Source: Ilumatobacteraceae bacterium
GTDB lineage: Bacteria; Actinomycetota; Acidimicrobiia; Acidimicrobiales; Ilumatobacteraceae
Direction: 5' to 3'
Assembly: GCA_024644465.1 (NCBI GenBank)
Contig: JAHEKY010000010.1
Span: 1 to 56,616, forward strand
Length of the DNA stretch: 56,616 nt
A program made the translations under genes and the position numbers. This document shows positions 12,303 to 27,894 of the stretch, piece after piece; the stretch's first letter is position 1; every line of letters begins with the position of its first letter. Below the pieces are notes generated by a model, which was given only the letters and a program-made list of their open reading frames with translations, had not been told where the DNA came from and ran no database searches.

Positions 12303-12917
12303 ATGGCGGAGTTCGCCGCGATCCTCAATGCGCCGGGCGTCGACGAGACGTGCGAGCTGCGCAGCCAGGTCGGGTTCATGGCGTACCACGGCGGCAACCT
12401 CGAGCTGATGACCGACGTGATCGCGTCCCGCGCCGCGGAACGCGCCGGCGCGTCGTACTACGGCGTCGTGCAGCCGGTGCCGATGCGCCAACACCTGCCG
12501 TCGATCAAGGTCCGACCTGCCGAGTCACCCCGCCTCGCAGCGTTCATCGAGCACATCGACATCGTCGTGACCGTGCACGGCTTCGGTCGGCGGGGGATGT
12601 TCACCTCACTGCTGCTCGGTGGCGGCAACCGTGCGTTCGCGGGCCATGTCGGCGATGCGCTGCGCCGGGTGCTGCCCGCCTACGACATCGTCACCGACAT
12701 CGACGCAATCCCCAAGCCGCTACGCGGGTTGCACCCCCACAACCCGGTGAACCTGCCCCGACAGGGCGGCGTCCAGATCGAGTTGCCGCCGCGCGTCCGT
12801 GGTTCGAGCCCGCTGTGGTGGGACTGGGAGGGGCCAGGGCTGACCCCGCACACCGACGCGCTGATCGACGGTCTCGTCGACGCTGCGACGGCGTGGGCGG
12901 ACGTCGACGCCGGTTAA
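12303..12917 (+). CDS. Poly-gamma-glutamate hydrolase-like (phage PGA hydrolase family)
   Basis: Protein of 204 residues with the zinc-peptidase-like pattern of the Gamma_PGA_hydro family (Bacillus YmaC and phage PghP relatives): MAYHGGNLELMTD near residue 25 gives the His and Glu ligands, and VVTVHGFGRRG supplies a second histidine segment. GLHPHNPVN contributes another pair of histidines. No signal peptide is visible, so a cytoplasmic or lysis-released enzyme is likely. The natural substrate in actinobacteria is unknown. Its stop codon shares a TTAA palindrome with the stop of the convergent histidine kinase gene. Confidence 0.7.
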   Translation: MAEFAAILNAPGVDETCELRSQVGFMAYHGGNLELMTDVIASRAAERAGASYYGVVQPVPMRQHLPSIKVRPAESPRLAAFIEHIDIVVTVHGFGRRGMFTSLLLGGGNRAFAGHVGDALRRVLPAYDIVTDIDAIPKPLRGLHPHNPVNLPRQGGVQIELPPRVRGSSPLWWDWEGPGLTPHTDALIDGLVDAATAWADVDAG

Positions 12918-13996
12918 CGGGGCGCGGTCGGCAGCGAGATCACGATTTCGCCGCCCGGGCCGTTGCCGATCGCCACGTTGCCGTGATGGGCGGTGACGAT
13001 GCCGCGAGCGATCGAGAGCCCGAGGCCCGCGGTGCCGGTGCGTGTGTCGCGGGCCGGGTCGGCTCGGGTGAACGGTTCGAACGCGCGGTCGCGGAACTCG
13101 ACGGGGAAACCGAGGCCTTCGTCGTGGACCCGCAGCACGACGTGATCGCCTTCCCGCACGATCTGGACGAGCACGACCGAGCCATCGGGGGCGTGACGGA
13201 TCGCGTTGTCGAGCAGGTTGCGGATGACGCGGGCGAGCTGGGATCCGTCCGCGTCGACCATCACCCGCTCGGTCGCTTCGAGCAGCAGCTTGATCCCGCG
13301 AGTCTCGGCGAGCGGCCGCACGATCTCCATCGACTCGTCGGCGAGTTCGGTGAGGTCGAGCCGGGCGCGGTCGAGTTGCAGGGTTCCGCTGATCAGCTGC
13401 GTGTGCAACTGGAGGTCATCGACGAGCGACGACAGCGCCCGCACCTGCCGCTCCATGCCCGCGAGATACAGGTCGGGGTCGTCGGCGACGCCGTCACGGA
13501 TCGCCTCGACCGCAGCGCGCAGGGCTGCGAGCGGCGTCCGGAGATCGTGGGAGATCGACGACAGCATCAGCGACCGCTCCCGCTCGACCGCGTCGAGGCG
13601 GTCGACCATCAGGTCGAACATCTCGGCGGCCTCGCCGAGCTCGTCGTTGCGCACGACGCCGGTCCGGGCGGACAGGTCGCCGTCGGCGACGCGCATCGCC
13701 GCGTCGCAGATCCGCTTCGCATCCCGCGCGACCGGGCGCGCCATCAGCATCGCGACCATCGCTGCGCCGAGCACCGCAGGCACGAGGACCTTCATCAGCA
13801 GGTCGAGGTCGTGCGCGTTGATGAACATCGCGTTCGCCGCGACGGCGATCATCAGAATCGCCACGCCGAGCACGGCGAGCGTCGCTCCGACGAAGCGCCG
13901 GCCGAGCCGGTTCATGCGATGGGCCTTGTGGCCGATCGCGCGCATCTCGGCCGCATTGGGCACGAGCGGATCCACGGGACTCGTCGGCGTCGTCAT
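12914..13996 (-). CDS. Membrane sensor histidine kinase
   Basis: Sensor kinase of 360 residues. Two transmembrane helices (about 34-56 and 68-87) bracket a very short extracytoplasmic loop, so sensing is probably within the membrane or internal. A HAMP domain follows, then HisKA with His150 in SSISHDLRTPLA. The ATP-binding domain has the N box NLLDNAIRHA, G1 VHDEGLGF and G2 GTAGLGLSIA, so it looks active. It is coupled to its response regulator by an ATGA overlap. Ligand and regulon are unknown. Confidence 0.92.
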   Translation of the reverse strand: MTTPTSPVDPLVPNAAEMRAIGHKAHRMNRLGRRFVGATLAVLGVAILMIAVAANAMFINAHDLDLLMKVLVPAVLGAAMVAMLMARPVARDAKRICDAAMRVADGDLSARTGVVRNDELGEAAEMFDLMVDRLDAVERERSLMLSSISHDLRTPLAALRAAVEAIRDGVADDPDLYLAGMERQVRALSSLVDDLQLHTQLISGTLQLDRARLDLTELADESMEIVRPLAETRGIKLLLEATERVMVDADGSQLARVIRNLLDNAIRHAPDGSVVLVQIVREGDHVVLRVHDEGLGFPVEFRDRAFEPFTRADPARDTRTGTAGLGLSIARGIVTAHHGNVAIGNGPGGEIVISLPTAPR

Positions 13997-14676
13997 GACT
14001 CGAACCGGTAGCCCACGCCCCAGACGGTGGTGATCCAGCGGGGGTGTTCGGGGTCGCTCTCGATCTTGTTGCGGATGCGGCGGACGTGCACGGTGACGGT
14101 CGCGGGGTCCTGCCAGTCGGGCGACGACTGCCAGACCGACTCGAGGAGCTGGGCGCGCGAGAACACCTGGCGCGGAGAACGCGCGAGGAACAGCAGCACG
14201 TCGAACTCCTTCGGGGTCATCTCGATGACCTTGCCGTCGAGCGTGACGTCCCGGCTGAGCGGGTCGATCTCCAGCCCGTCGAACGTCAGCGTCGCAGGGG
14301 TGTCGTCCTGGCGGCCGACGGTGCGGCGCAGCACGCCGTTGACCCGGGCCGCGAGTTCGCGGGGTGAGAACGGTTTGACGACGTAGTCGTCGGCGCCGAG
14401 CTCCAGCCCGGAGACGCGATCGGATTCTTCGGCCCGCGCAGTGAGCATGATCACGGGAATCGAACTCACCGCGCGGACGCGACGGAGGATGTCCAGCCCG
14501 TTCACACCGGGCAGCATCATGTCGAGCACGACGAGGTCGGGCGGGTCGGCATCGAGCAGTTCGAGCGCGTGGTGTCCGTCGGCGGCCTCGGCGACCTCGT
14601 GGCCGTCACGGCGCAGATATCCGGCGACGACTTCGCGAACGGTTGGTTCGTCGTCGACCACCAGAACCTTCGTCAT
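13993..14676 (-). CDS. OmpR/PhoB-type response regulator
   Basis: Two-domain response regulator of 227 residues. The receiver has acidic residues in VVDDE, phosphoacceptor Asp52 in VVLDMMLPG, the switch Thr in MLTAR, and Lys101 in VVKPFSPRE. The winged-helix DNA-binding domain (about 130-227) ends in VTVHVRRIRNKIE and TVWGVGYRFES, the usual C-terminal hairpin. It is the first gene of the two-component operon and overlaps the kinase gene. Confidence 0.93.
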   Translation of the reverse strand: MTKVLVVDDEPTVREVVAGYLRRDGHEVAEAADGHHALELLDADPPDLVVLDMMLPGVNGLDILRRVRAVSSIPVIMLTARAEESDRVSGLELGADDYVVKPFSPRELAARVNGVLRRTVGRQDDTPATLTFDGLEIDPLSRDVTLDGKVIEMTPKEFDVLLFLARSPRQVFSRAQLLESVWQSSPDWQDPATVTVHVRRIRNKIESDPEHPRWITTVWGVGYRFES

Positions 14677-17981: not shown

Positions 17982-18914
17982 TCAGCCGTGGCGATCGGCC
18001 GGCGCCGGCGACGTCGCGAACTCACGCTCGACGTCGGCCGTCGTCAGCGGGAGGGAGTCACCGTCGTCGTCGAATGGGCGCACGGTGCGCCGATAGTCCT
18101 GCTCGCGGCCGTAGTCCTGCGCGAAGCGCTTGAAGAAGATGAAGACGACGATCGTCCACAGGAAGATCGACCCGCCGGTCTTCATGATCGCGCCGGCGAG
18201 CTGTTGGTCGACGGTGACGCTCCACCCGAAGACGCGTACCGGGATGTCGTAGCTCTCGTAGACGGCCCCGTCGGCGAACGTCAACCACGCGGCGGGGACG
18301 GTCGGCACGACGGATTGGAGGAAGAGATAGATGCACTTGCCGAGCGGGCCGAGATGCCACTCGCGGAACGGGCCGACGACCGGCATCCACATCAGCAGCG
18401 AGAGCAGCACGACGCCCGCATGCAGGCCGTAGTGCAGCGGTCCGCTCTCGACCGACGCGGTGACGACGAGTGGGATGTGCGTCACCATCACGACGACGTT
18501 GAACAGCACGCCCGCGACGATCGGCCTCGCGAGGAACGCGGTCGCGCGGTACAGACGACCGTCGCCGATCAGCACTCGCAGCAGCCATGCCGGCGTCGCC
18601 AGCAGGGCGAGCGGTGGCAGGAAGTAGCTGAGCATCATGTGCTGGAGCATGTGCGCGGAGTAGAGGTACTCCTCGGAGATGTCGTGCAGCGGCCAATCGC
18701 TCGCGACCCACAACATCGCCATGGCACCGACGAATGCGCCGATGTTCCGGCGGGTGATCACCGCGACGCCGGGAGGGACCGCCTTCGGGCCGATCACCCG
18801 CACCATGTACACGAACGCGGCCGTGAGGAACGCGACCAGCACCCACACTTCCGGGTGCCACTGGAATTTCCAGGGGTCGGCGTCGAGCGACGCCTGTGTG
18901 ACCGGGGCCAACAT
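17982..18914 (-). CDS. ctaG: CtaG-type cytochrome c oxidase assembly protein
   Basis: Polytopic membrane protein of 310 residues from the caa3-type CtaG family, needed for oxidase maturation (probably copper delivery). It has about seven hydrophobic helices and the family's conserved histidine-containing stretches: SAHMLQHMMLSYFLPP and LHYGLHAGVVLL. Last gene of the oxidase operon, 35 bases behind the subunit IV-like gene. It is unrelated to the Cox11-type protein also called CtaG in proteobacteria. Confidence 0.88.
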   Translation of the reverse strand: MLAPVTQASLDADPWKFQWHPEVWVLVAFLTAAFVYMVRVIGPKAVPPGVAVITRRNIGAFVGAMAMLWVASDWPLHDISEEYLYSAHMLQHMMLSYFLPPLALLATPAWLLRVLIGDGRLYRATAFLARPIVAGVLFNVVVMVTHIPLVVTASVESGPLHYGLHAGVVLLSLLMWMPVVGPFREWHLGPLGKCIYLFLQSVVPTVPAAWLTFADGAVYESYDIPVRVFGWSVTVDQQLAGAIMKTGGSIFLWTIVVFIFFKRFAQDYGREQDYRRTVRPFDDDGDSLPLTTADVEREFATSPAPADRHG

Positions 18915-19304: not shown

Positions 19305-20009
19305 TCAGGCCGGAATCAGGTAGACGAGGGTGAAGATGATGATCCAGACGATGTCGACGAAGTGCCAGTACAGGCCGACCATCTCGACCGTTTCGGCGTT
19401 GTCGCCGGCGACCTTGTCCCGCGAGAGCATGCCGACGAGCGCGATCAACATGACGATGCCGACCGAGACGTGGACACCGTGGAAACCGGTCAGCGTGAAG
19501 AAGCTCGACGAGAACAGGCTCGTCGTGAACCCGAGCCCCTCCCGGTAGAACGTCGTGAACTCGTAGATCTGGCCGGCGACGAACAGCCCGCCGAGCAGTG
19601 CGGTCACCGTCAGGAAGATCTTCGTCCGGCGCAGGTCGCCGCGCGTCGCTGCGGAGACGGCGAGCACCATCGTCAGCGATGACGTCAACAGCACGAAGCT
19701 CGACGCGGACGTGAACGGGATGTCCCAGAGCTGATCCGGCCCGAGGTTCGCCGAGTGCCGGTTGCGGTAGAGCATGTACGTCGAGATCAGCCCGCCGAAC
19801 AGCAGGCACTCCGACCCGAGGAACAGCCACATCGCCAACTTCGTGTTGGACAGCCCGAGTGAGGAGTGGTGGCCGCCGTGTGCGCCGTGATCGTCGTGAC
19901 CGGCGGCGACGTCGCCGGCGTGCACGTCGTGGTCGTGGACATCGTCGGCGTGGTCCTTGACGATGTCGACCGCGTCCTTGATCGTGTCGGCGATCACCGA
20001 GTCAGACAT
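19305..20009 (-). CDS. ctaE: Cytochrome c oxidase subunit III
   Basis: Membrane subunit of 234 residues. After a His/Asp-rich soluble N-terminus (VHDHDVHAGDVAAGHDDHGAH region) come five helices of the short subunit III type. WLFLGSECLLFGGL, FTLTGFHGVHVSVG and YWHFVDIVWIIIF are the standard conserved segments, the last containing the usual His and Asp. It overlaps ctaD by 8 bases. The histidine-rich N-terminal tail is longer than usual and could bind metal. Confidence 0.93.
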   Translation of the reverse strand: MSDSVIADTIKDAVDIVKDHADDVHDHDVHAGDVAAGHDDHGAHGGHHSSLGLSNTKLAMWLFLGSECLLFGGLISTYMLYRNRHSANLGPDQLWDIPFTSASSFVLLTSSLTMVLAVSAATRGDLRRTKIFLTVTALLGGLFVAGQIYEFTTFYREGLGFTTSLFSSSFFTLTGFHGVHVSVGIVMLIALVGMLSRDKVAGDNAETVEMVGLYWHFVDIVWIIIFTLVYLIPA

Positions 20010-22002
20010 TGGCCAGCTCCGTTCCGGTCGCAGGATCGGTCGGCGGCGGGTCGAAGTCCGACGGGTCGGCGTCGGCGGGCTCGAGTGCCCAGCCGAACAT
20101 CGCCATCACGGCGACACCGGCACCGGCGACGATCAGCAGCGTGTTGTAGATCACCCCGTACGCCATGATCGGCAACGCCGCGGCGAGCACGATCGGCCAG
20201 TACGACGGTGCGGGGAGGTGGATGTGCGCATCGGCGTTGCGCTCCTCCTCTGCGATCACCTCGGCGCCGGTTGCACGCCGGACGTAGTTGTGTTCCTCGC
20301 CCTCACCGATGTCTTCGTACTTGCGGTGGAAGAACTCGTCGAGATCGTGGACGATCGGCGTGCGGTCGTAGTTGTGCGGCTTCGGCGGCGACGTCGACAT
20401 CCACTCCAGGCTGCGGGCGTCCCACGGGTCCTCCGGTGCGACCGGGGTGGCACTGCCCGGCCGGTGGGTGATCCAGACGTTGATCAGGAAGCAGAGGATA
20501 CCGACCGTCAGCACGGCGGTGCCGATCGTGGCGAACATGTTCCAGAACGCGCCGTTGAAGAACCCCTCGCCGGCGCGGTAGTCGGTCCACGTGTACATCC
20601 GGCGCGGCTGACCCTGCAACCCGAGGATGTGCATCGGACCGAACGTCATGTTCATGCCGATGATCATCAGCCAGAAGTTCCACTTGCCCCAGGTCTCGCT
20701 GAGCATCTTGCCGAACACCTTCGGCCACCAGTAGTAGAACCCGGCGAACAACCCGAGCACCGCACCACCGAAGATCACGTAGTGGAAGTGGGCGACGATG
20801 TAGTAGGTGTCGGTCTGCTGCGTGTCCGACGGGGCGACCGCGTGGGTGACGCCGGACAGACCGCCGATCGTGAACTGCACGATCAGCCCGACGGAGAACA
20901 GCATCGCCGTGGTGAACCACAACTTGCCGCCCCAGATCGTGAGCGTCCAGTTGATGATCTTGACGCCGGTCGGGACGGCGATCGCCATGGTGGCGACCGA
21001 GAAGACCGCGACCGAGACCGGGCCGAGACCGGAGGCGAACATGTGGTGCGCCCACACGCCCCAGCCGACGAAGCCGATCGCCGCGCCCGAGAACACGACG
21101 AACGGGTAACCGAACAGGGGCTTGCGGGAGAACACCGGCAACACCTCGGAGATGATGCCGAAGCTCGGCAAGACGAGGATGTACACCTCCGGGTGCCCGA
21201 AGATCCAGAACAGGTGCTGCCACAGGAGTGGGTCGGCGCCCGCCTCGACCGAGAAGAACGTGGCCCCGTAGGACCGCTGGAACATCAGCAGGAACAGCGC
21301 AACCGTGATGACGGGGATCGCGAACAGCAGCAGCATCTGCACGACGAAGGCCATCCACGTGAAGATCGGCATCCGCATCATCGACATGCCGGGCGCGCGC
21401 ATGTTCAGCACGGTCACGATCAGGTTGATCGCGCCGACGAGGCTGGCGATACCGGTGATCTGCAGCCCGAGGGCCCAGAAGTCGACGCCGTTGCTCGGCG
21501 AGAACGGAACCGAGCTGTTCGGGGCGTACATGAACCATCCGCCGTCGGCCGCGCCGCCGAGGAACCACGACGTGTTGAGGAACACGCCGCCGAAGATGAA
21601 CACCCACAGGCTCAGTGCGTTCAATCGGGGGAACGCGACGTCGCGCGCGCCGACCTGGAGCGGGATGAAGTAGTTGGCGAACGCCGCCGCCATCGGCATC
21701 ACGAACAGGAAGACCATCGTGGTCGCATGCATCGTGAACATCTGGTTGTACTTGTCCGCGGACAGCACCGTTCCGTCGGCCGAGGCCAGCTGGAGCCGGA
21801 TCAGGAAGGCCTCGACGCCACCGACGAGGAAGAAGAACATCGCGGCGACGCCGTACATGATGCCGATCTTCTTGTGGTCGACGGTGAAGGCCCACGACCG
21901 CCAGCCGGTCGTCTCGACCGGGCGGCGCAGGTACCCGAAGTTGGTGGTCGCCGTCGGCGTCGGTGCCACGGGCACGTCGACCGGGCGTTCGATGATGGCC
22001 AT
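20002..22002 (-). CDS. ctaD: Cytochrome c oxidase subunit I (A-type, catalytic) with C-terminal extension
   Basis: Catalytic haem-copper subunit of 666 residues. All metal ligands are present: low-spin haem His92 and His407, CuB His270, 319 and 320, and high-spin haem His405. Glu272 and the cross-linked Tyr274 in GHPEVY mark the A1-type proton pathway. Twelve core helices end near 525. About 140 extra residues follow with two more helices (SYWPIVLAAALPIMAYGV and a second), a block resembling the CtaF module and similar to part of the 404-residue gene in this operon. It reduces O2 to water with proton pumping. Overlaps ctaE by 8 bases. Confidence 0.96.
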   Translation of the reverse strand: MAIIERPVDVPVAPTPTATTNFGYLRRPVETTGWRSWAFTVDHKKIGIMYGVAAMFFFLVGGVEAFLIRLQLASADGTVLSADKYNQMFTMHATTMVFLFVMPMAAAFANYFIPLQVGARDVAFPRLNALSLWVFIFGGVFLNTSWFLGGAADGGWFMYAPNSSVPFSPSNGVDFWALGLQITGIASLVGAINLIVTVLNMRAPGMSMMRMPIFTWMAFVVQMLLLFAIPVITVALFLLMFQRSYGATFFSVEAGADPLLWQHLFWIFGHPEVYILVLPSFGIISEVLPVFSRKPLFGYPFVVFSGAAIGFVGWGVWAHHMFASGLGPVSVAVFSVATMAIAVPTGVKIINWTLTIWGGKLWFTTAMLFSVGLIVQFTIGGLSGVTHAVAPSDTQQTDTYYIVAHFHYVIFGGAVLGLFAGFYYWWPKVFGKMLSETWGKWNFWLMIIGMNMTFGPMHILGLQGQPRRMYTWTDYRAGEGFFNGAFWNMFATIGTAVLTVGILCFLINVWITHRPGSATPVAPEDPWDARSLEWMSTSPPKPHNYDRTPIVHDLDEFFHRKYEDIGEGEEHNYVRRATGAEVIAEEERNADAHIHLPAPSYWPIVLAAALPIMAYGVIYNTLLIVAGAGVAVMAMFGWALEPADADPSDFDPPPTDPATGTELANV

Positions 22003-22036: not shown

Positions 22037-23311
22037 TCACTTGCGTTCCAGGAGGTAGGCGATCAACTGGTCGATCTGATCCTCGCTGAGGGCGAGGTAC
22101 GGCATGCCGCGCGGCAGGCTGTTGGTCTCTTCGAGCTTCGTCGGGTCCGTGTACATCGGCTTCTTCGCCGGTGCGTTGCGCAGCCACTCGCGCAGTTCGA
22201 CCTCGTTCAGGCAGTCCGCGGTGACGCCTTCGTTGTACCGCTCACCCACCCGGTCCGACGGCGCCTCCCACACGAGCGGCCGGCACGTCTCGTTGAGCAG
22301 GTCGTACGACGCGCCCGCGAACGTGTTGCGGGTCATCAGGTTGGTGAGGTTCGGTGCCGCACCGGAGTAGACGTTCAGGTCGGGCCGGGCGATCTGCAGC
22401 TCACCGTCGGCGGTCTCGAGGCCGTCCACCTGGTGGCAGCGAGCGCACTGCGAGATGAACGTCGCCTCGCCCTCGGCGGCGAGCGACTCGGGCTCGGGGG
22501 CGGCGTACGCCTCGATCTGATTCGCCTTCCACGCCTCGAAGTCGTCGTGTTCCATCGCGATGACTTCCATGCGCATGTTCGCATGGCTCAGCCCGCAGAA
22601 CTCGGTGCACTGGCCGGCGTAGATGCCGGGCTCATCGGCCTGCAGGCGGTTCGTGTGCACTCGGCCCGGGACCATGTCGCGCTTGCCGTTGAGCTTTGGG
22701 ATCCACCACGAGTGGATCACGTCGCGGCTCGTGCCGCGCACGATCACGTTCGTGCCGACCTCGATGACCATCTGCCCGGACGTGACGATCGGCTGGGAGA
22801 TGCCGCCGCAGCCGTCCTGCACGGGGTAGTCGATCTCCCACCACCACTGCTGACCCGTGACGTTGATGACACAGTCGGTGTCGTCGGTGTCGGCCAACGC
22901 CATCAGGGTGCCGACGGTCGGGATCGCGACGCCGATGAGGATCAGTGCCGGCAGGATCGTGAGCCCGATCTCGAGGGCCGGCTTGCCATGGGTCTGCTTC
23001 GGGATCGGCTGGCCGGTGTCGCGGTAGCGCCACAGCGCGTAGAACAGCACCGAGAACACCGCAACGCCGACGACGCCGGCGATCAGGAAGACCGGCCACT
23101 GCAGATCGTGAATCTTCTGGGCATTGTCGCCGGCCGGTTGCCACGTGTCCTGCGGCGCGTCGTTGGCGCAACCGGCAGCGAGCGCGCCGAGGGTTGCGAT
23201 GGCACCGATCCGGGCGAGACGTCCGTGATGTGTCACTGCGCCGAAGGTACCGGGCGTCGAGGCGCCGTGCATGCTTGTGCGCTCGTTCGCGGTCATTTCC
23301 ACGTCGCTCAC
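22037..23311 (-). CDS. ctaC: Cytochrome c oxidase subunit II fused to cytochrome c (caa3 type)
   Basis: Electron-entry subunit of 424 residues. Lipoprotein-type signal (LGALAAGC, Cys48), two helices (about 70-95 and 112-140), then the cupredoxin domain with CuA ligands His200, Cys235, Glu237, Cys239, His243 and Met246. A C-terminal class I cytochrome c domain follows (CARCH, Cys289, Cys292, His293; a Met axial ligand near the C-terminus). This makes it a caa3-type oxidase taking electrons directly. The GTG start forms GTGA with the preceding stop. ctaD lies 34 bases downstream. Confidence 0.95.
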   Translation of the reverse strand: MSDVEMTANERTSMHGASTPGTFGAVTHHGRLARIGAIATLGALAAGCANDAPQDTWQPAGDNAQKIHDLQWPVFLIAGVVGVAVFSVLFYALWRYRDTGQPIPKQTHGKPALEIGLTILPALILIGVAIPTVGTLMALADTDDTDCVINVTGQQWWWEIDYPVQDGCGGISQPIVTSGQMVIEVGTNVIVRGTSRDVIHSWWIPKLNGKRDMVPGRVHTNRLQADEPGIYAGQCTEFCGLSHANMRMEVIAMEHDDFEAWKANQIEAYAAPEPESLAAEGEATFISQCARCHQVDGLETADGELQIARPDLNVYSGAAPNLTNLMTRNTFAGASYDLLNETCRPLVWEAPSDRVGERYNEGVTADCLNEVELREWLRNAPAKKPMYTDPTKLEETNSLPRGMPYLALSEDQIDQLIAYLLERK

Positions 23312-24522
23312 GGCACCACCAGGTTCAGTTCGGCGTCGGTTCCGGGGACGAAGAACCGGTACGCCTCCGGGTCGTCCTCGTAGATCTGGCTCGGCTCCGC
23401 GATCGTGAAGGTGAGCAGTTGCGCACTGCCGCTCTCGATCAGCGTCGTGCACAGCTGACGGCGATCGAACGGCTCGTGCGACTCGTCGCCGTGGGCCTCG
23501 TCGCCGTGCGCTTCGTCCTCGGCGGCAGCTTCCTCGACGGCGGCGATCTCGTCCTCGGTCAACATGCCGAGGTCGAGGGAGAGTCGCCGGTGTTCACCCG
23601 AGTCGTTGCGGAACAGGATGTTGTTCGGGTTCGCGCGCGGCAGCGTGAGCCCGAGCCCACCTTCTTCGAGCGGCCCGGGAACGTCGAATTCGAGCGTGCC
23701 CGATCTCGTCAGGGTGATCTCGGCCGCGAGGTTGGCCTTGACGGCGACGGTCTGGCTCGCGTTCTCGTCCGGCTCACCCTCCTCGGGGCTCGCGCAGAAG
23801 CCCTCGGCCGCCAGATCAGCGGTCGTCTCGTGCACGTGGATGTCACGTTCGCCGTCGACGCCGGCGGCCACGCCGCCTGCGACGATCGCCACTGCGCCGA
23901 CGGCGAGCGCACCGCCGATCGCGCCACGCGTGACCGACGGCCGGAACGCGAAGAAGAACGCGATTGCCGCGACGATCGCAGCGAGGACGACGAACGCGAT
24001 CACCGTGTTCGTCTTCGACAACCACAGCATCACCCGGCTCAGCGAGAACGCGATCCCGCCGACGGCGACGGCACCGAGCAGCGGGTATTCGAGGGGGTTC
24101 GCGAGCCGGCTGCGCACGGTCTCGTTGACCGCGGGGTCGGCCGAGGCGGCTTCCGCCCACGCCTGGATCGTCCACTGCGCACCGGCCGCGAACAGGATCA
24201 CGATGCCGATCGTGAAGATCGACTGCTGTGTCACCAGCCCGAGCAGGACGGTCGCCGCGCCGACGGCGAACACCATCGGCCAGATGCTGTTGCCGGGCGG
24301 GACGTCCGCAGCCTCGGACGACGCAACGGCGGTGGCATCCATCGCCGAGACGTTGGAGTCACGGGCCCAGACGTTGACACCGGCGAGGAACGACAGCGCG
24401 AGCGCCGCTGACACGAGGCCGACGATGCCGAGCGAGTCGACCTGCGTCACGCCGTAGACGACCGCCGCGAGCGTTGCCAACACCGCCGACCCGATGAGGA
24501 GTTTGGAACCTGTGGTGAACAT
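23308..24522 (-). CDS. CtaF-like membrane protein with cupredoxin-like, His-rich C-terminal domain
   Basis: Unfamiliar 404-residue protein between the subunit III-like gene and ctaC. The N-terminal part has two helices, a linker, then two more beginning NSIWPMVFAVGAATVLLG and ending WTIQAWAEAAS, similar to actinobacterial oxidase subunit IV (CtaF). Two further helices (about 145-225) follow. The extracytoplasmic C-terminal ~180 residues look like a beta-sandwich of cupredoxin type: NNILFRNDSGEHRR, an inserted HGDEAHGDESHE loop, a single Cys in RRQLCTT, then LLTFTIAEP and FFVPGT. The Cys-His-Met copper loop of true cupredoxins is not complete. A copper-binding or structural role in the oxidase is inferred from context. 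Confidence 0.65.
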   Translation of the reverse strand: MFTTGSKLLIGSAVLATLAAVVYGVTQVDSLGIVGLVSAALALSFLAGVNVWARDSNVSAMDATAVASSEAADVPPGNSIWPMVFAVGAATVLLGLVTQQSIFTIGIVILFAAGAQWTIQAWAEAASADPAVNETVRSRLANPLEYPLLGAVAVGGIAFSLSRVMLWLSKTNTVIAFVVLAAIVAAIAFFFAFRPSVTRGAIGGALAVGAVAIVAGGVAAGVDGERDIHVHETTADLAAEGFCASPEEGEPDENASQTVAVKANLAAEITLTRSGTLEFDVPGPLEEGGLGLTLPRANPNNILFRNDSGEHRRLSLDLGMLTEDEIAAVEEAAAEDEAHGDEAHGDESHEPFDRRQLCTTLIESGSAQLLTFTIAEPSQIYEDDPEAYRFFVPGTDAELNLVVP

Positions 24523-24559: not shown

Positions 24560-25135
24560 TCATTTCGTGATGTAGACGACGAACCAGATCGCGGCGAAGA
24601 TCGCGGCGACGGTGTACCAGTAGATGGCGTGGGCGGCCACGATCTCCCGATCGCTGCGACCACCGATGAACCGGAACGCGACGACGGCGGAGAAGACGAT
24701 GCCGATCGCCATCAGTGCCATGAACATGCCGGTGACCGCGTAGAACATCGCGGCGTAGGTGCCGTCACCGACGCCGAGGCCCATCTCGGAGTAGACGAAC
24801 GCCTGGGCGTTGATCACCATCACGGCGGTGAGCACGGTGACCCCGAGCGCGAACGCGGCATGACCGCGATCGTTGCGCTTCGCGGCGTACACCGCCCACT
24901 GGGCGAACGTGCAGATACCGATGAACGCGAGGAGCGTGACGTTGACCGGGACCTCGGGGATCGTGACGCCCTCGGGCAGCCAGACCTCACCCACGTCGAC
25001 CGTGCGCCGGCGCTGGAGCGACCAGACCGCCAGCATCCCGCCGGTGAGCATCACCATCGCGACCGACGCGAGCGCGGACCCGACGATCAGTTGGCGCCGG
25101 GGGGCTGGGGCGGGGCCGGCTTCCAGGGCTTGCAT
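24560..25135 (-). CDS. Second subunit III-like oxidase protein
   Basis: Membrane protein of 191 residues with five helices and the C-terminal pattern of subunit III (FYAVTGMFMALMAIGIVFS, then AHAIYWYTVAAIFAAIWFVVY). It is a distinct copy from ctaE and lacks its soluble N-terminal tail. The conserved segment corresponding to WHFVDIVW reads YWYTVAAIF, so the lipid/proton-related His and Asp are missing. Its start overlaps the stop of the metal-free subunit I paralogue by one base, so the two are coupled and probably form a pair. Confidence 0.8.
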   Translation of the reverse strand: MQALEAGPAPAPRRQLIVGSALASVAMVMLTGGMLAVWSLQRRRTVDVGEVWLPEGVTIPEVPVNVTLLAFIGICTFAQWAVYAAKRNDRGHAAFALGVTVLTAVMVINAQAFVYSEMGLGVGDGTYAAMFYAVTGMFMALMAIGIVFSAVVAFRFIGGRSDREIVAAHAIYWYTVAAIFAAIWFVVYITK

Positions 25136-26763
25136 CAGGTATCACTCCCTGAAGTCGTGGCGACGTCGAGCGACGGCTCGGACGACATCACCGTCGGGGC
25201 GTCGACGAAGTTGGCGCGCGGCGCCGGGGAAGCCGTTGTCCACTCCAGCGTGTGGCCGTCGTAGGGGTTGTCGCCCGGCTCGTCGGCGGGAGCCCGCAGC
25301 GTCTTGGCGAGCAACCCGACGAAGGCGAGCACGGTGAGACCCATCAACACGTGGCCGACGAGCACGAGCACGCTGTAGACGTCGCGCGGAGTGTCGAAAC
25401 CCTCGACATAGCTCGGCAGCGACGCGAGCACCGTCGCGAGCAGGCCGAGGCCGGCGAGCGGGAGGAGGTGCGCGGCGGGCAGCGTTCGGCCCCAGAGCTT
25501 CGGCGCCCAGAAGGCGACGCCGCCCATGACGCCGAGCACAGCGCCGTAGACGACGTAGATCAGCGCCCCCTCCTCGAACACCGTGCCCTGGAGCGCGAGG
25601 TCTTCGATCGCGAACAGCGCGGTGCCGAGCATGCCCATCAGCACCATCCCGGCGCCGAGGAACCCGAACGCGAACGCGGGGGTGAGATTCGGCCGCACGC
25701 CCTTCGCGGGCTTGGCGAGGAACAGCGACATCAGGACGACGATCACGAGCCCGAGCAGCGGCAGCAGGTTGAACATCGCCCACGGCAGCGCATCGTCGAG
25801 CTTGGTGCGGACGTCGTTGCTGTCACCGATGAACAGGTCGCTGCCTGCCCACGGCAGGTTGTGGACCGCCTGCTGTGCGACGCCCGTGAATGCCGCGAAG
25901 CCGATCAGGCCGAGGCCGGCGAACATCACGCCACGCGCCGGCGTCCGCAGGCGGAACAGCAGCGGGGCACCTTCGGCGAGGACGCCGATCGCCGGGATCG
26001 CGAACAGGAACGTCGTCGGCTGGGTGAAGACCCACAGCGCCCACTCGTAGATGCCGGTGTTGCCGCCGAAGCCTTGCCGGGCGTTGCGGTGGTCCATGAA
26101 GAGATAGACGAGCGTGCCGAGCAGCACCGGCATCACCAGCAGCAGGCCGAGCGCGGTGACGAGCGCCGACATCGAGAAGAACGGGACCCGGCGCATCGTC
26201 ATCCCCGGCGCCCGGGTCGTCAGCACGCTCGTGGCGACCGCACCGGCGGCGGCGGCCAGACCGATCGCCATCAGGCCGTGCGAAGCGATGAAGAGGTCGA
26301 CCATGTCGGCGTTGCCGCCGAGCCCGCCGCCGTCGTTGGCGAGCGCGATCACGGTGAACACGAGGCCACCGAACCACAGCCAGAAACCGGCCGCGGCGAG
26401 CCGCGGGAACGCGAGCGCTCGGGCGCCGAGTTGCAGCGGGACGATCGCGACGCACAACCCGAGCGACAGCGGCAGCAGCGTGGCGAACACGAGGCTGACC
26501 CGCTGAGCGTCCAGGATCTGGGCGATCGCGTCCTGGTCGACGGTGGCGATGTCGGCGCGCTCGATGCCGAGCACGACGTTGACGACGACGGTCGCCAGCA
26601 GACCGAGCAGGCCACCGCCCAGGAACAGCCGGCCGATCTTCTTGTGATCGGTCGAGGTCGACCAGTCGGCCACGCCCGCCAGCACCGCTTCCAACTTGCT
26701 GTTGTCGTCCACGACGTCGCCGCTGCGAACGATCGTGTCGGAGGTGGGGTCAAGGGTGGTCAT
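25135..26763 (-). CDS. Haem-copper oxidase subunit I paralogue lacking all metal ligands
   Basis: Membrane protein of 542 residues that aligns along its length with CtaD: both share TDHKKIG, PLQLGARALAFPRL and TRAPGMTM segments. None of the six ligand histidines survives. CtaD His92 aligns with Gln87; CuB His270, 319 and 320 with Gln248, Gln297 and Gln298; His405 and His407 with Gly399 and Leu401. Glu272 and Tyr274 of the active site are Thr250 and Phe252. It therefore cannot hold haem or CuB in the usual way. The fold appears intact, with no stop or frameshift. First gene of the operon that contains ctaC, ctaD and ctaE. Probable role is structural or regulatory; not determined. Confidence 0.9.
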   Translation of the reverse strand: MTTLDPTSDTIVRSGDVVDDNSKLEAVLAGVADWSTSTDHKKIGRLFLGGGLLGLLATVVVNVVLGIERADIATVDQDAIAQILDAQRVSLVFATLLPLSLGLCVAIVPLQLGARALAFPRLAAAGFWLWFGGLVFTVIALANDGGGLGGNADMVDLFIASHGLMAIGLAAAAGAVATSVLTTRAPGMTMRRVPFFSMSALVTALGLLLVMPVLLGTLVYLFMDHRNARQGFGGNTGIYEWALWVFTQPTTFLFAIPAIGVLAEGAPLLFRLRTPARGVMFAGLGLIGFAAFTGVAQQAVHNLPWAGSDLFIGDSNDVRTKLDDALPWAMFNLLPLLGLVIVVLMSLFLAKPAKGVRPNLTPAFAFGFLGAGMVLMGMLGTALFAIEDLALQGTVFEEGALIYVVYGAVLGVMGGVAFWAPKLWGRTLPAAHLLPLAGLGLLATVLASLPSYVEGFDTPRDVYSVLVLVGHVLMGLTVLAFVGLLAKTLRAPADEPGDNPYDGHTLEWTTASPAPRANFVDAPTVMSSEPSLDVATTSGSDT

Positions 26764-26946: not shown

Positions 26947-27894
26947 TCACCAGCCGTACTCGACGAGCACGTCCAGCGTCATCGCGCCGAACAGCAACGT
27001 CACGTAGGTGATCGAGAATCCGAACAAGCGCATGCTCGCAGCGGGGCTCGGGCGCCGCTCCAACGCGATCGTGCCGGCGAGGAAGACCCCGCCGAGGACG
27101 ACGGCGGCCACACCGTAGATCCAGCCGAGGTCGGCGACCGGGATCAGGACGAGCGTCGCCACGACGAGCGCGATCGTGTACCAGATCATCTGGCGGACCG
27201 CCTGCGCGAGCGGTACGACCGCCGGCAGCATCGGCACCTCGGCGGCCCGATAGTCGTCTGCGTACTTCACCGCGAGCGCCCAGAAGTGCGGCGGTGTCCA
27301 CAGGAACATCGCCGCGAACAGCACGATCGGCGTCCAGGCGAGCGAGTCCTGCACGGCCGCCCAGCCGACGAGCACGGGCACGGCGCCCGCTGCGCCGCCG
27401 ATGACGATGTTCTGCCGGCTCGTCCGCTTCAGCCACAGCGTGTAGACCCCGATGTAGAAGGCCGCCGCGGACAGCGCGAGCACGGCCGAGAGCAGATTCG
27501 CTCCGGCCCAGAGGACCACGAACGCGCCGACCTGGAGGGCGACGGCGAAGACCAGCGCATTGCGCGGCGCGATCATCCCGGTCACGAGCGGCCGGGTCTG
27601 CGTGCGCTGCATCAACGCATCGATGTCGCGATCGACGTACATGTTGACCGCGTTCGCGCCGCCCGCCGAGAGCGCACCGCCGATCAAAGTGATCACGACG
27701 AGCGAGGTCGGGGGCCAACCGCGGGCCGCGAGCACCATCGTCGGGACCGTCGTGATCAGCAGCAACTCGATGATCCGGGGCTTCGTCAACGCGACGTAGG
27801 CACCGATGACGCTCGTCGGGTTCCGCCGGGACGCATGACCGACGCCGCCCGGCGCGAGCCGGGACGGGACGAGAGGGCGGGAGCCGACGGCCAT
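26947..27894 (-). CDS. ctaB: Protohaem IX farnesyltransferase (haem O synthase)
   Basis: UbiA-family prenyltransferase of 315 residues that farnesylates haem B to haem O for oxidase assembly. Allylic diphosphate/Mg sites are NAVNMYVDRDIDALMQRT and YADDYRAAEVPMLP. Nine helices are apparent, starting with ALTKPRIIELLLI. Transcribed in the same direction as, and just upstream of, the oxidase operon. A divergent gene begins 67 bases from its start. No ctaA (haem A synthase) is in the window. Confidence 0.95.
   Translation of the reverse strand: MAVGSRPLVPSRLAPGGVGHASRRNPTSVIGAYVALTKPRIIELLLITTVPTMVLAARGWPPTSLVVITLIGGALSAGGANAVNMYVDRDIDALMQRTQTRPLVTGMIAPRNALVFAVALQVGAFVVLWAGANLLSAVLALSAAAFYIGVYTLWLKRTSRQNIVIGGAAGAVPVLVGWAAVQDSLAWTPIVLFAAMFLWTPPHFWALAVKYADDYRAAEVPMLPAVVPLAQAVRQMIWYTIALVVATLVLIPVADLGWIYGVAAVVLGGVFLAGTIALERRPSPAASMRLFGFSITYVTLLFGAMTLDVLVEYGW

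Follow-up and report, generated by a model that had tools for sequence, protein, structure and literature searches.

The window analysed here, a stretch of 56,616 nucleotides covering positions 1 to 56,616 of contig JAHEKY010000010.1 (GenBank assembly GCA_024644465.1, Ilumatobacteraceae bacterium), carries a three-gene cassette directly ahead of the cytochrome c oxidase genes ctaC-ctaD-ctaE. The first cassette gene encodes I2, a 542-aa pseudo-subunit I with the COX1 fold (25135..26763, minus strand), in which every metal ligand is replaced; a haem-copper oxidase subunit I is defined by these ligands. I2 was described in an earlier note as a ligand-free subunit I paralogue maintained by selection. 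This holds, and the loss of the active site is common to all 57 I2 proteins that we collected from the order. The unit is larger than one gene, since a paralogous subunit III (III2) and a subunit IV-like membrane protein (P3) travel with I2. The names Acidimicrobiia, Acidimicrobiales and Ilumatobacteraceae are applied to the window on our assumption that it follows its nearest named relative, an Ilumatobacter metagenome-assembled genome (L004; NCBI taxonomy).

As the earlier note had stated, the I2 frame is intact, with an ATG start and no internal stop, and its G+C content at third codon positions is 0.93 (0.86-0.94 across the seven operon genes). Its identity as an oxidase subunit I paralogue is borne out by COX1 homology over the whole chain: Pfam COX1 (PF00115) accepts I2 with 84.4 bits (cut-off 34.8), and a profile of the I2 family matches solved cytochrome c oxidase subunits I with a best E value of 2.5e-113. 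The NCBIfam CtaD models miss it (TIGR02891, 142 of 670.75 bits; NF050116, 133.5 of 880 bits), and I2 is a subfamily of a known fold without its own model in Pfam or NCBIfam. Ligand positions were read from alignments with the window CtaD and with 38 and 45 further CtaD proteins. All six ligand histidines are replaced (H92>Q87, H270>Q248, H319>Q297, H320>Q298, H405>A400 and H407>I402, CtaD to I2). On the minus strand, Gln87 (26503..26505) takes the place of the helix II haem a histidine, Gln248 (26020..26022) that of the first CuB histidine, the HPEVY motif reading QPTTF, Gln297-Gln298 (25870..25875) that of the second and third CuB histidines, and Ala400-Leu401-Ile402 (25558..25566) that of the helix X His-Phe-His with its haem a3 and haem a ligands. 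The earlier claim of six replacements was thus correct in substance, but the residues it named in helix X, Gly399 and Leu401, are neighbours of the true counterparts Ala400 and Ile402. The active-site Glu and Tyr are indeed gone, being Thr and Phe in I2. The same note had stressed that four of the six changes are His to Gln; among 43 I2 proteins Gln is common at the first two CuB positions (33 and 32 sequences), but rare at the third (6) and in helix II (5), so the inference of a systematic change is half right. The idea that Gln for His is itself the point was rejected because Gln is widespread at no more than two of the six positions.

No substitute ligand set is visible. The window protein contains seven histidines, and at a 70% threshold the only conserved His, Cys or Met residues among 51 I2 proteins are the initiator Met, H40 (the only histidine, in 46 of the 51) and M188, each of which is also the commonest residue in CtaD. 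That misalignment conceals the ligands was rejected on the basis of the three alignment sets and the lack of conserved spare histidines. The three CuB histidines of a catalytic O2 reductase are absent from the window I2, as are the two haem a histidines and the one of haem a3, with Q87, A400 and I402 in their place. NorB-type nitric oxide reductases use three His and a Glu for a non-haem iron, in addition to a haem His; the CuB-equivalent positions of I2 have no His, as judged from the CtaD alignment, NorB itself not having been aligned. An assembly error was also rejected, as the gene is present both in the independent L004 genome (83% identical) and in a single-contig genome of the same genus (G134).

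Relatives were gathered in three rounds. The first comprised 42 loci, namely L004, L005 and 40 loci picked for family spread from the best-scoring matches, and leans towards closer relatives; 20 further stretches, some of them likely canonical controls, yielded eight more I2, and another 12 stretches yielded six, giving 57 with the window. Assignment to I2 relied on profile score and on a place beside ctaB and III2/P3, ligands being ignored, and no sequence was dropped for having them; two loci in which P3 is present and I2 lies off the contig (L132 and L151, the latter with a copper motif in P3) were left out. The I2 frame is open for at least 541 codons at the window and at all 42 first-round loci. 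No CuB site is found in any of the 57 proteins: 54 keep none of the CuB histidines and three keep one. All six ligands are lost in 27 of 57, and the low-spin haem (haem a) pair is kept in 17. To the earlier questions of whether ligand loss is conserved and whether orthologues retain histidines, the answer is divided: loss of the CuB site is universal, but complete loss is confined to 27 proteins, and the orthologues that do retain the low-spin haem pair have no CuB site. Within the window's family (eight loci including the window), the CuB site is likewise missing throughout, one member keeping a single CuB histidine, and the helix II position is occupied by Q, H, Y, A or E. By comparison, every ligand is present in all 46 CtaD proteins of I2-bearing operons and in a further six standing beside an I2.

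The loss extends to residues around the metal sites. In a comparison of 51 I2 with 46 CtaD proteins (channel, propionate and loop residues bearing their usual names in the family), the D-channel Asp and Asn, invariant in CtaD, occur in none of the I2 proteins. The K-channel Thr occurs in three, and the K-channel Lys is not among the seven commonest residues at its position; both are invariant in CtaD. The invariant Asp before helix X is nearly always replaced, and the first of the propionate arginines, which are invariant in CtaD, is kept in 4 of 51 I2 (six gaps; the arginine positions are partly gapped). Residues of the fold are kept: R184, P249 and W419 in all 51, and likewise the Pro of HPE and the Arg of the APGM loop, the Trp of the FWIFG stretch in 49 and the C-terminal LEW motif in 50. 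The best-kept 20-residue blocks are 101-120, 181-200 and 501-520, which by the known topology of the family should presumably face the cytoplasm. Compared with A-type CtaD/COX1, I2 has the same whole-length fold, conserved loops, LEW C-terminus and operon setting, but is without CuB, haem a, haem a3 and the D- and K-channel residues, and reaches 142 bits against an NCBIfam cut-off of 671.

The cassette consists of I2, III2 and P3, all on the minus strand like the genes that follow. III2 (24560..25135; 191 aa) is a subunit III paralogue (Pfam COX3, E 9e-12) that matches solved subunit III chains by profile with an E value of 4e-25; its ATG and the I2 stop codon have one base in common (TGATG). 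P3 (23308..24522) is a membrane protein with a CtaF-like N-terminal part and a C-terminal domain of about 180 residues, in which no copper motif was found in the window. It scores 21 bits against Pfam Cyt_c_ox_IV, below the cut-off of 26.9, and 6 of 39 P3 members match this model at E 0.01. Its N-terminus matches solved "cytochrome c oxidase polypeptide 4" chains, which we take to be of mycobacterial origin, with an E value of 6e-5. This likens P3 to actinobacterial CtaF, from which it differs in its greater length, its further hydrophobic segments and the blue-copper domain of its deep relatives. In the window's family the C-terminal domain (23311-23850, minus strand) has two Cys in all eight sequences aligned, likely a disulfide, an acidic His-containing insert and no Pfam match. 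A degenerate cupredoxin is suspected here; hhalign aligned only the preceding membrane helix, and Pfam finds nothing.

Downstream lie ctaC (22037..23452 as listed), encoding subunit II with a CuA motif and a C-terminal cytochrome c domain, with a candidate GTG start at 23311 that overlaps the P3 stop (GTGA); ctaD (20002..22002), canonical subunit I with every ligand intact; and ctaE (19305..20009), canonical subunit III. At the C-terminus of the window CtaD, residues 596-641 align with a portion of Pfam's subunit IV model at 7e-6, narrowly missing the cut-off; this may be a built-in subunit IV fragment. The assembly factor gene ctaG (17982..18914; Pfam Caa3_CtaG, E 2e-35) follows ctaE after a gap of about 390 bp, and a histidine kinase and response regulator pair (12914-14676, minus strand), a candidate regulator, lies about 3 kb from ctaG. 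The earlier note placed I2 at the head of the operon, which is not the case: ctaB, for haem O synthase (26947..27894), lies 183 bp upstream on the same strand and is present at all 42 first-round loci. The seven genes ctaB-I2-III2-P3-ctaC-ctaD-ctaE stand in one order at 37 of these loci, and contig ends cut four others (L005, L038, L052 and L056). At an ordinary actinobacterial locus, L117 for example, subunit II is followed by genes in the order I-III-IV, which is also the order within the cassette; the cassette therefore looks like the remains of a second oxidase.

The window's genome, a draft of 195 contigs, encodes three COX1-family proteins, with scores of 511 bits for CtaD, 487 bits for an 889-aa open frame on contig 151 and 84 bits for I2. 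That 889-aa frame contains another intact oxidase subunit I (12741-14078; L002). In addition, two matches to the N-terminal domain of cytochrome b (bc1-type family; contigs 97 and 151, L141 and L142) and one NrfD-family match (contig 36, L140) are candidate electron-supply complexes.

Purifying selection acts on the cassette when the window is compared with its nearest relative. Between the window and L004, the ratio of nonsynonymous to synonymous rates (dN/dS, Nei-Gojobori) is 0.20 for I2, 0.15 for III2 and 0.19 for P3, and 0.22, 0.13, 0.05 and 0.11 for ctaC, ctaD, ctaE and ctaB, respectively. Against G134 (L036) the values are 0.54, 0.40 and 0.39 for the cassette genes and 0.40, 0.21, 0.19 and 0.23 for the other four, in a more distant comparison where third positions are about 90% G+C, synonymous changes may be near saturation and dS is probably underestimated. 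Constraint on the cassette is thus similar to that on ctaC and weaker than that on ctaD.

Metal loss in the cassette looks graded, since the I2 next to each of the 11 P3 proteins with a copper motif retains the low-spin haem pair. The motif, C-x2-H-x2/3-M in the P3 C-terminal domain, occurs beside 11 of 57 I2, and Cupredoxin_1 scored above its cut-off in all five of these P3 proteins tested by Pfam (L075, L122, L150, L153 and L154). Without the motif, the haem pair is kept beside 6 of 45 P3 (Fisher p 8e-8, uncorrected for kinship; 56 loci with both genes, L005 having no P3 in its stretch). At seven copper-bearing loci (L126, L127, L148, L149, L150, L153 and L154) the I2 counterpart of the CtaD motif HPEVY is RPEVY, RPEVF or a near variant: the CuB histidines are gone and the Glu or Asp of the motif stays. 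The haem a3 histidine is retained as well in five of the seven. In a tree of 53 sequences from which 15 functional columns had been removed (bootstrap values from the unrooted tree), I2 proteins form one group (bootstrap 100). From the canonical side, L075, L122 and L152 branch first (99 for the remainder), followed by the seven RPEVY-like proteins (100 for the remaining 18); the copper-bearing L056 falls in the remainder without a firm place (49). The AU test does not reject a grouping of I2 with the CtaD type of this operon (p 0.36; the program warned that replicates were too few). On the simplest reading, CuB would have been lost first, then the copper domain and the haems. CuB may also have been lost independently more than once, since the replacing residues differ between groups.

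To follow the cassette across genomes, P3 was used as a marker and found in 200 of 298 genomes of the order. Its weakest best match within the order has an E value of 9.6e-17, and matches outside reach 2.5e-14 or weaker over about 55-100 profile positions. I2 itself is less suitable: by score alone it appears in 127 of 298 genomes at E <= 1e-131, a count that is unclean, as 442 bits were reached by a canonical protein belonging to a different order (G375, L120) and the I2 of G014, G009, G019, G054 and G029, confirmed by reading, fall below the cut-off. Among 198 genomes of the order (taken to be G000-G197, which agrees with every CtaD-bearing genome listed), 119 have both P3 and the CtaD type of this operon, two have this CtaD only, 14 have P3 only (no CtaD match at the search cut-off) and 63 have neither. 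P3 is thus present in 119 of 121 genomes with this CtaD, a consistent genomic pairing. The two CtaD-only genomes are contig-edge cases and hence no clear exceptions: in G025 the contig ends about 200 bases upstream of ctaD, and in G178 a stretch of 235 bases separates I2 from the end of its contig, beyond which a P3 would fall. Of the possible roles named in the earlier note (platform, partner or regulator), this co-occurrence favours a partner of the same oxidase. In a sample of the class (244 genomes), 46 of 94 P3 matches are in the order, the other 48 being weak and partial (E 2.5e-14 or worse). When 396 genomes sampled from the phylum were scored for I2, with three candidates per genome, all matches above 440 bits belonged to the order; deeper I2 cannot be separated from CtaD by score. 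At six of the loci outside the order with a weak P3 match (L138, L139 and L144-L147), ctaC-ctaD-ctaE is present, CtaD is canonical and the stretch read contains no I2. Five of them (L144-L147 and L139) have a separate P3-like gene downstream of ctaE. The L144 gene (9910-10683) encodes a protein that bears a Copper-bind domain; in the other four products a comparable C-x3-G-H-x3-G-M stretch lies close to the C-terminus.

We give about an even chance to the proposal that I2-III2-P3 is an inert half that assembles with CtaC-CtaD-CtaE. The three proteins would be catalytically dead pseudo-subunits I, III and IV of one asymmetric complex, and the dead half would give structure (stability, docking, perhaps contacts with a supercomplex or an electron donor), supporting the live oxidase as the haem-free CydB does CydA. 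Its ancestor may have been an oxidase-like complex that first lost CuB, still had its low-spin haem and either acquired or retained a blue-copper domain on P3, and that may once have relayed electrons; in many lineages, the window's included, the metals would then have been lost and the scaffold stayed. By analogy with CydB, the empty core of I2 may be occupied by a quinone or a lipid. The physical association, the structural role and the ancestral relay are what we infer. Somewhat short of an even chance is our estimate for the fuller account, an asymmetric complex IV with which Acidimicrobiales respire and in which dead pseudo-subunits I, III and IV are joined to a live caa3 oxidase. In this account an ancestral half that relayed electrons would have given up its metals step by step, CuB before blue copper and haems, and living lineages would still display the intermediate stages.

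Several observations weigh against such a complex. The joint operon and co-occurrence fit an assembly factor too. G421, a 96% complete genome of the window's family, gave no I2/COX1 match at 1e-40 (6 of 16 candidates scored) and no P3 match (12 of 15 candidates scored). Canonical oxidases also occur where the cassette is missing, both in the order (e.g. G022, G032 and G033) and outside it, and caa3-like oxidases in general therefore need no cassette. Adjacency is not absolute: about 4.7 kb separates P3 from ctaC at L122 (G029), and at L075 (G146) no ctaC follows P3 within 2.2 kb of sequence and ctaD is on another contig. In the G134 comparison I2 is under looser constraint than the live subunit (0.54 against 0.21 for ctaD), and the joint loss of copper and haem is confounded by ancestry.

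Among the rival explanations, an assembly platform seems unlikely, though it fares best. On this account the cassette would act in biogenesis only, as a holder of nascent CtaD or CtaC or a donor of haem or copper, and would not be part of the mature oxidase. The presence of ctaB and ctaG in the operon region fits such a role, as do the position of the cassette genes ahead of ctaC-ctaD, with possible translational coupling, and the blue-copper domain of deep relatives, which would suit copper delivery. However, counterparts of subunits III and IV resemble a structural complex, not a chaperone, the copper motif is missing from 45 of 56 P3, and the six related loci outside the order have ctaC-ctaD-ctaE with no cassette in the stretch read. 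A little less probable still is a separate membrane complex that is only co-regulated with the oxidase and serves in binding a quinone or small ligand, in sensing, or in electron transfer in the haem-bearing relatives. I2, III2 and P3 do make up a near-complete oxidase-like set, deep members keep haem ligands, and the ubiquinone-8 at the haem positions of CydB illustrates that empty pockets can take other cofactors (available part of PMC6853902); the pairing with one CtaD type in 119 of 121 genomes and the joint operon would be hard to explain if the complex were independent, and no conserved new ligand site is visible. It is improbable that I2 is a cryptic metalloprotein that binds haem or another metal through ligands missed by alignment: the haem pair of 17 relatives and the Gln widely kept at two CuB positions would agree with this, but none of the six window residues is a usual haem or copper ligand, and the His, Cys and Met residues conserved among I2 are those common in CtaD as well. 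We place even less weight on a decaying duplicate on its way to loss, for which the graded ligand loss across the order and the dN/dS of 0.54 against G134 could be cited; such decay, or a frameshift, is disfavoured by the open frames, by the dN/dS of 0.20 against L004 and by the breadth of occurrence (200 of 298 genomes). Least probable of all is a switch or decoy that competes with CtaD for common subunits and lowers the amount of oxidase or its proton pumping under some condition, which the same fold and the LEW segment would allow, but which, from within the operon of the oxidase, would need extra control for independent induction (none was looked for).

Two further known systems bear comparison with I2: CydB of cytochrome bd, a member of an unrelated protein family that is not known to have accompanying pseudo-subunits III and IV, and eNOR, a haem-copper NO reductase that keeps its metal ligands. 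Cytochrome bd offers the closer parallel, as CydA and CydB have the same fold, with haems only in CydA and ubiquinone-8 at the haem positions in CydB, so that a haem-free paralogue is encoded with, and mirrors, the haem-bearing catalytic subunit (PMC6853902, in the part consulted). The association of CydA with CydB is proven, whereas that of I2 with CtaD is inferred. In eNOR, a COX1 fold with changed active-site residues, Gln standing where O2 reductases have Tyr, is joined by a cupredoxin partner (PMC8756737, in the part consulted); I2 differs in losing the CuB ligands themselves. No description of a CuB-less or ligand-free COX1 paralogue was found in the open-access literature, covered by titles and abstract openings, with most subscription papers and all bioRxiv preprints outside this scope. 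The accessible part of PMC8239418, on the evolution of the oxidase, mentions Acidimicrobiaceae once, in a table on another protein, and that of PMC11697166, on an isolate of Acidimicrobiia in which cytochrome c oxidase genes are expressed, has nothing on a ligand-free paralogue. An inactive twin subunit is a known kind of protein; the accompanying pseudo-subunits make an unusual set.

These results also carry a warning for genome surveys, in that the number of COX1 genes is not the number of oxidases, since the Pfam COX1 cut-off accepts I2. The I2 family is a natural series from haem-bearing to empty proteins and predicts an unusual complex IV; whether a haem-copper terminal oxidase can carry an inactive twin, as has been structurally shown for cytochrome bd, can now be tested. 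A family that is spread across the order without an O2 site suggests that the scaffold is of use in itself, and a dead half kept by selection suggests that the live enzyme needs it.

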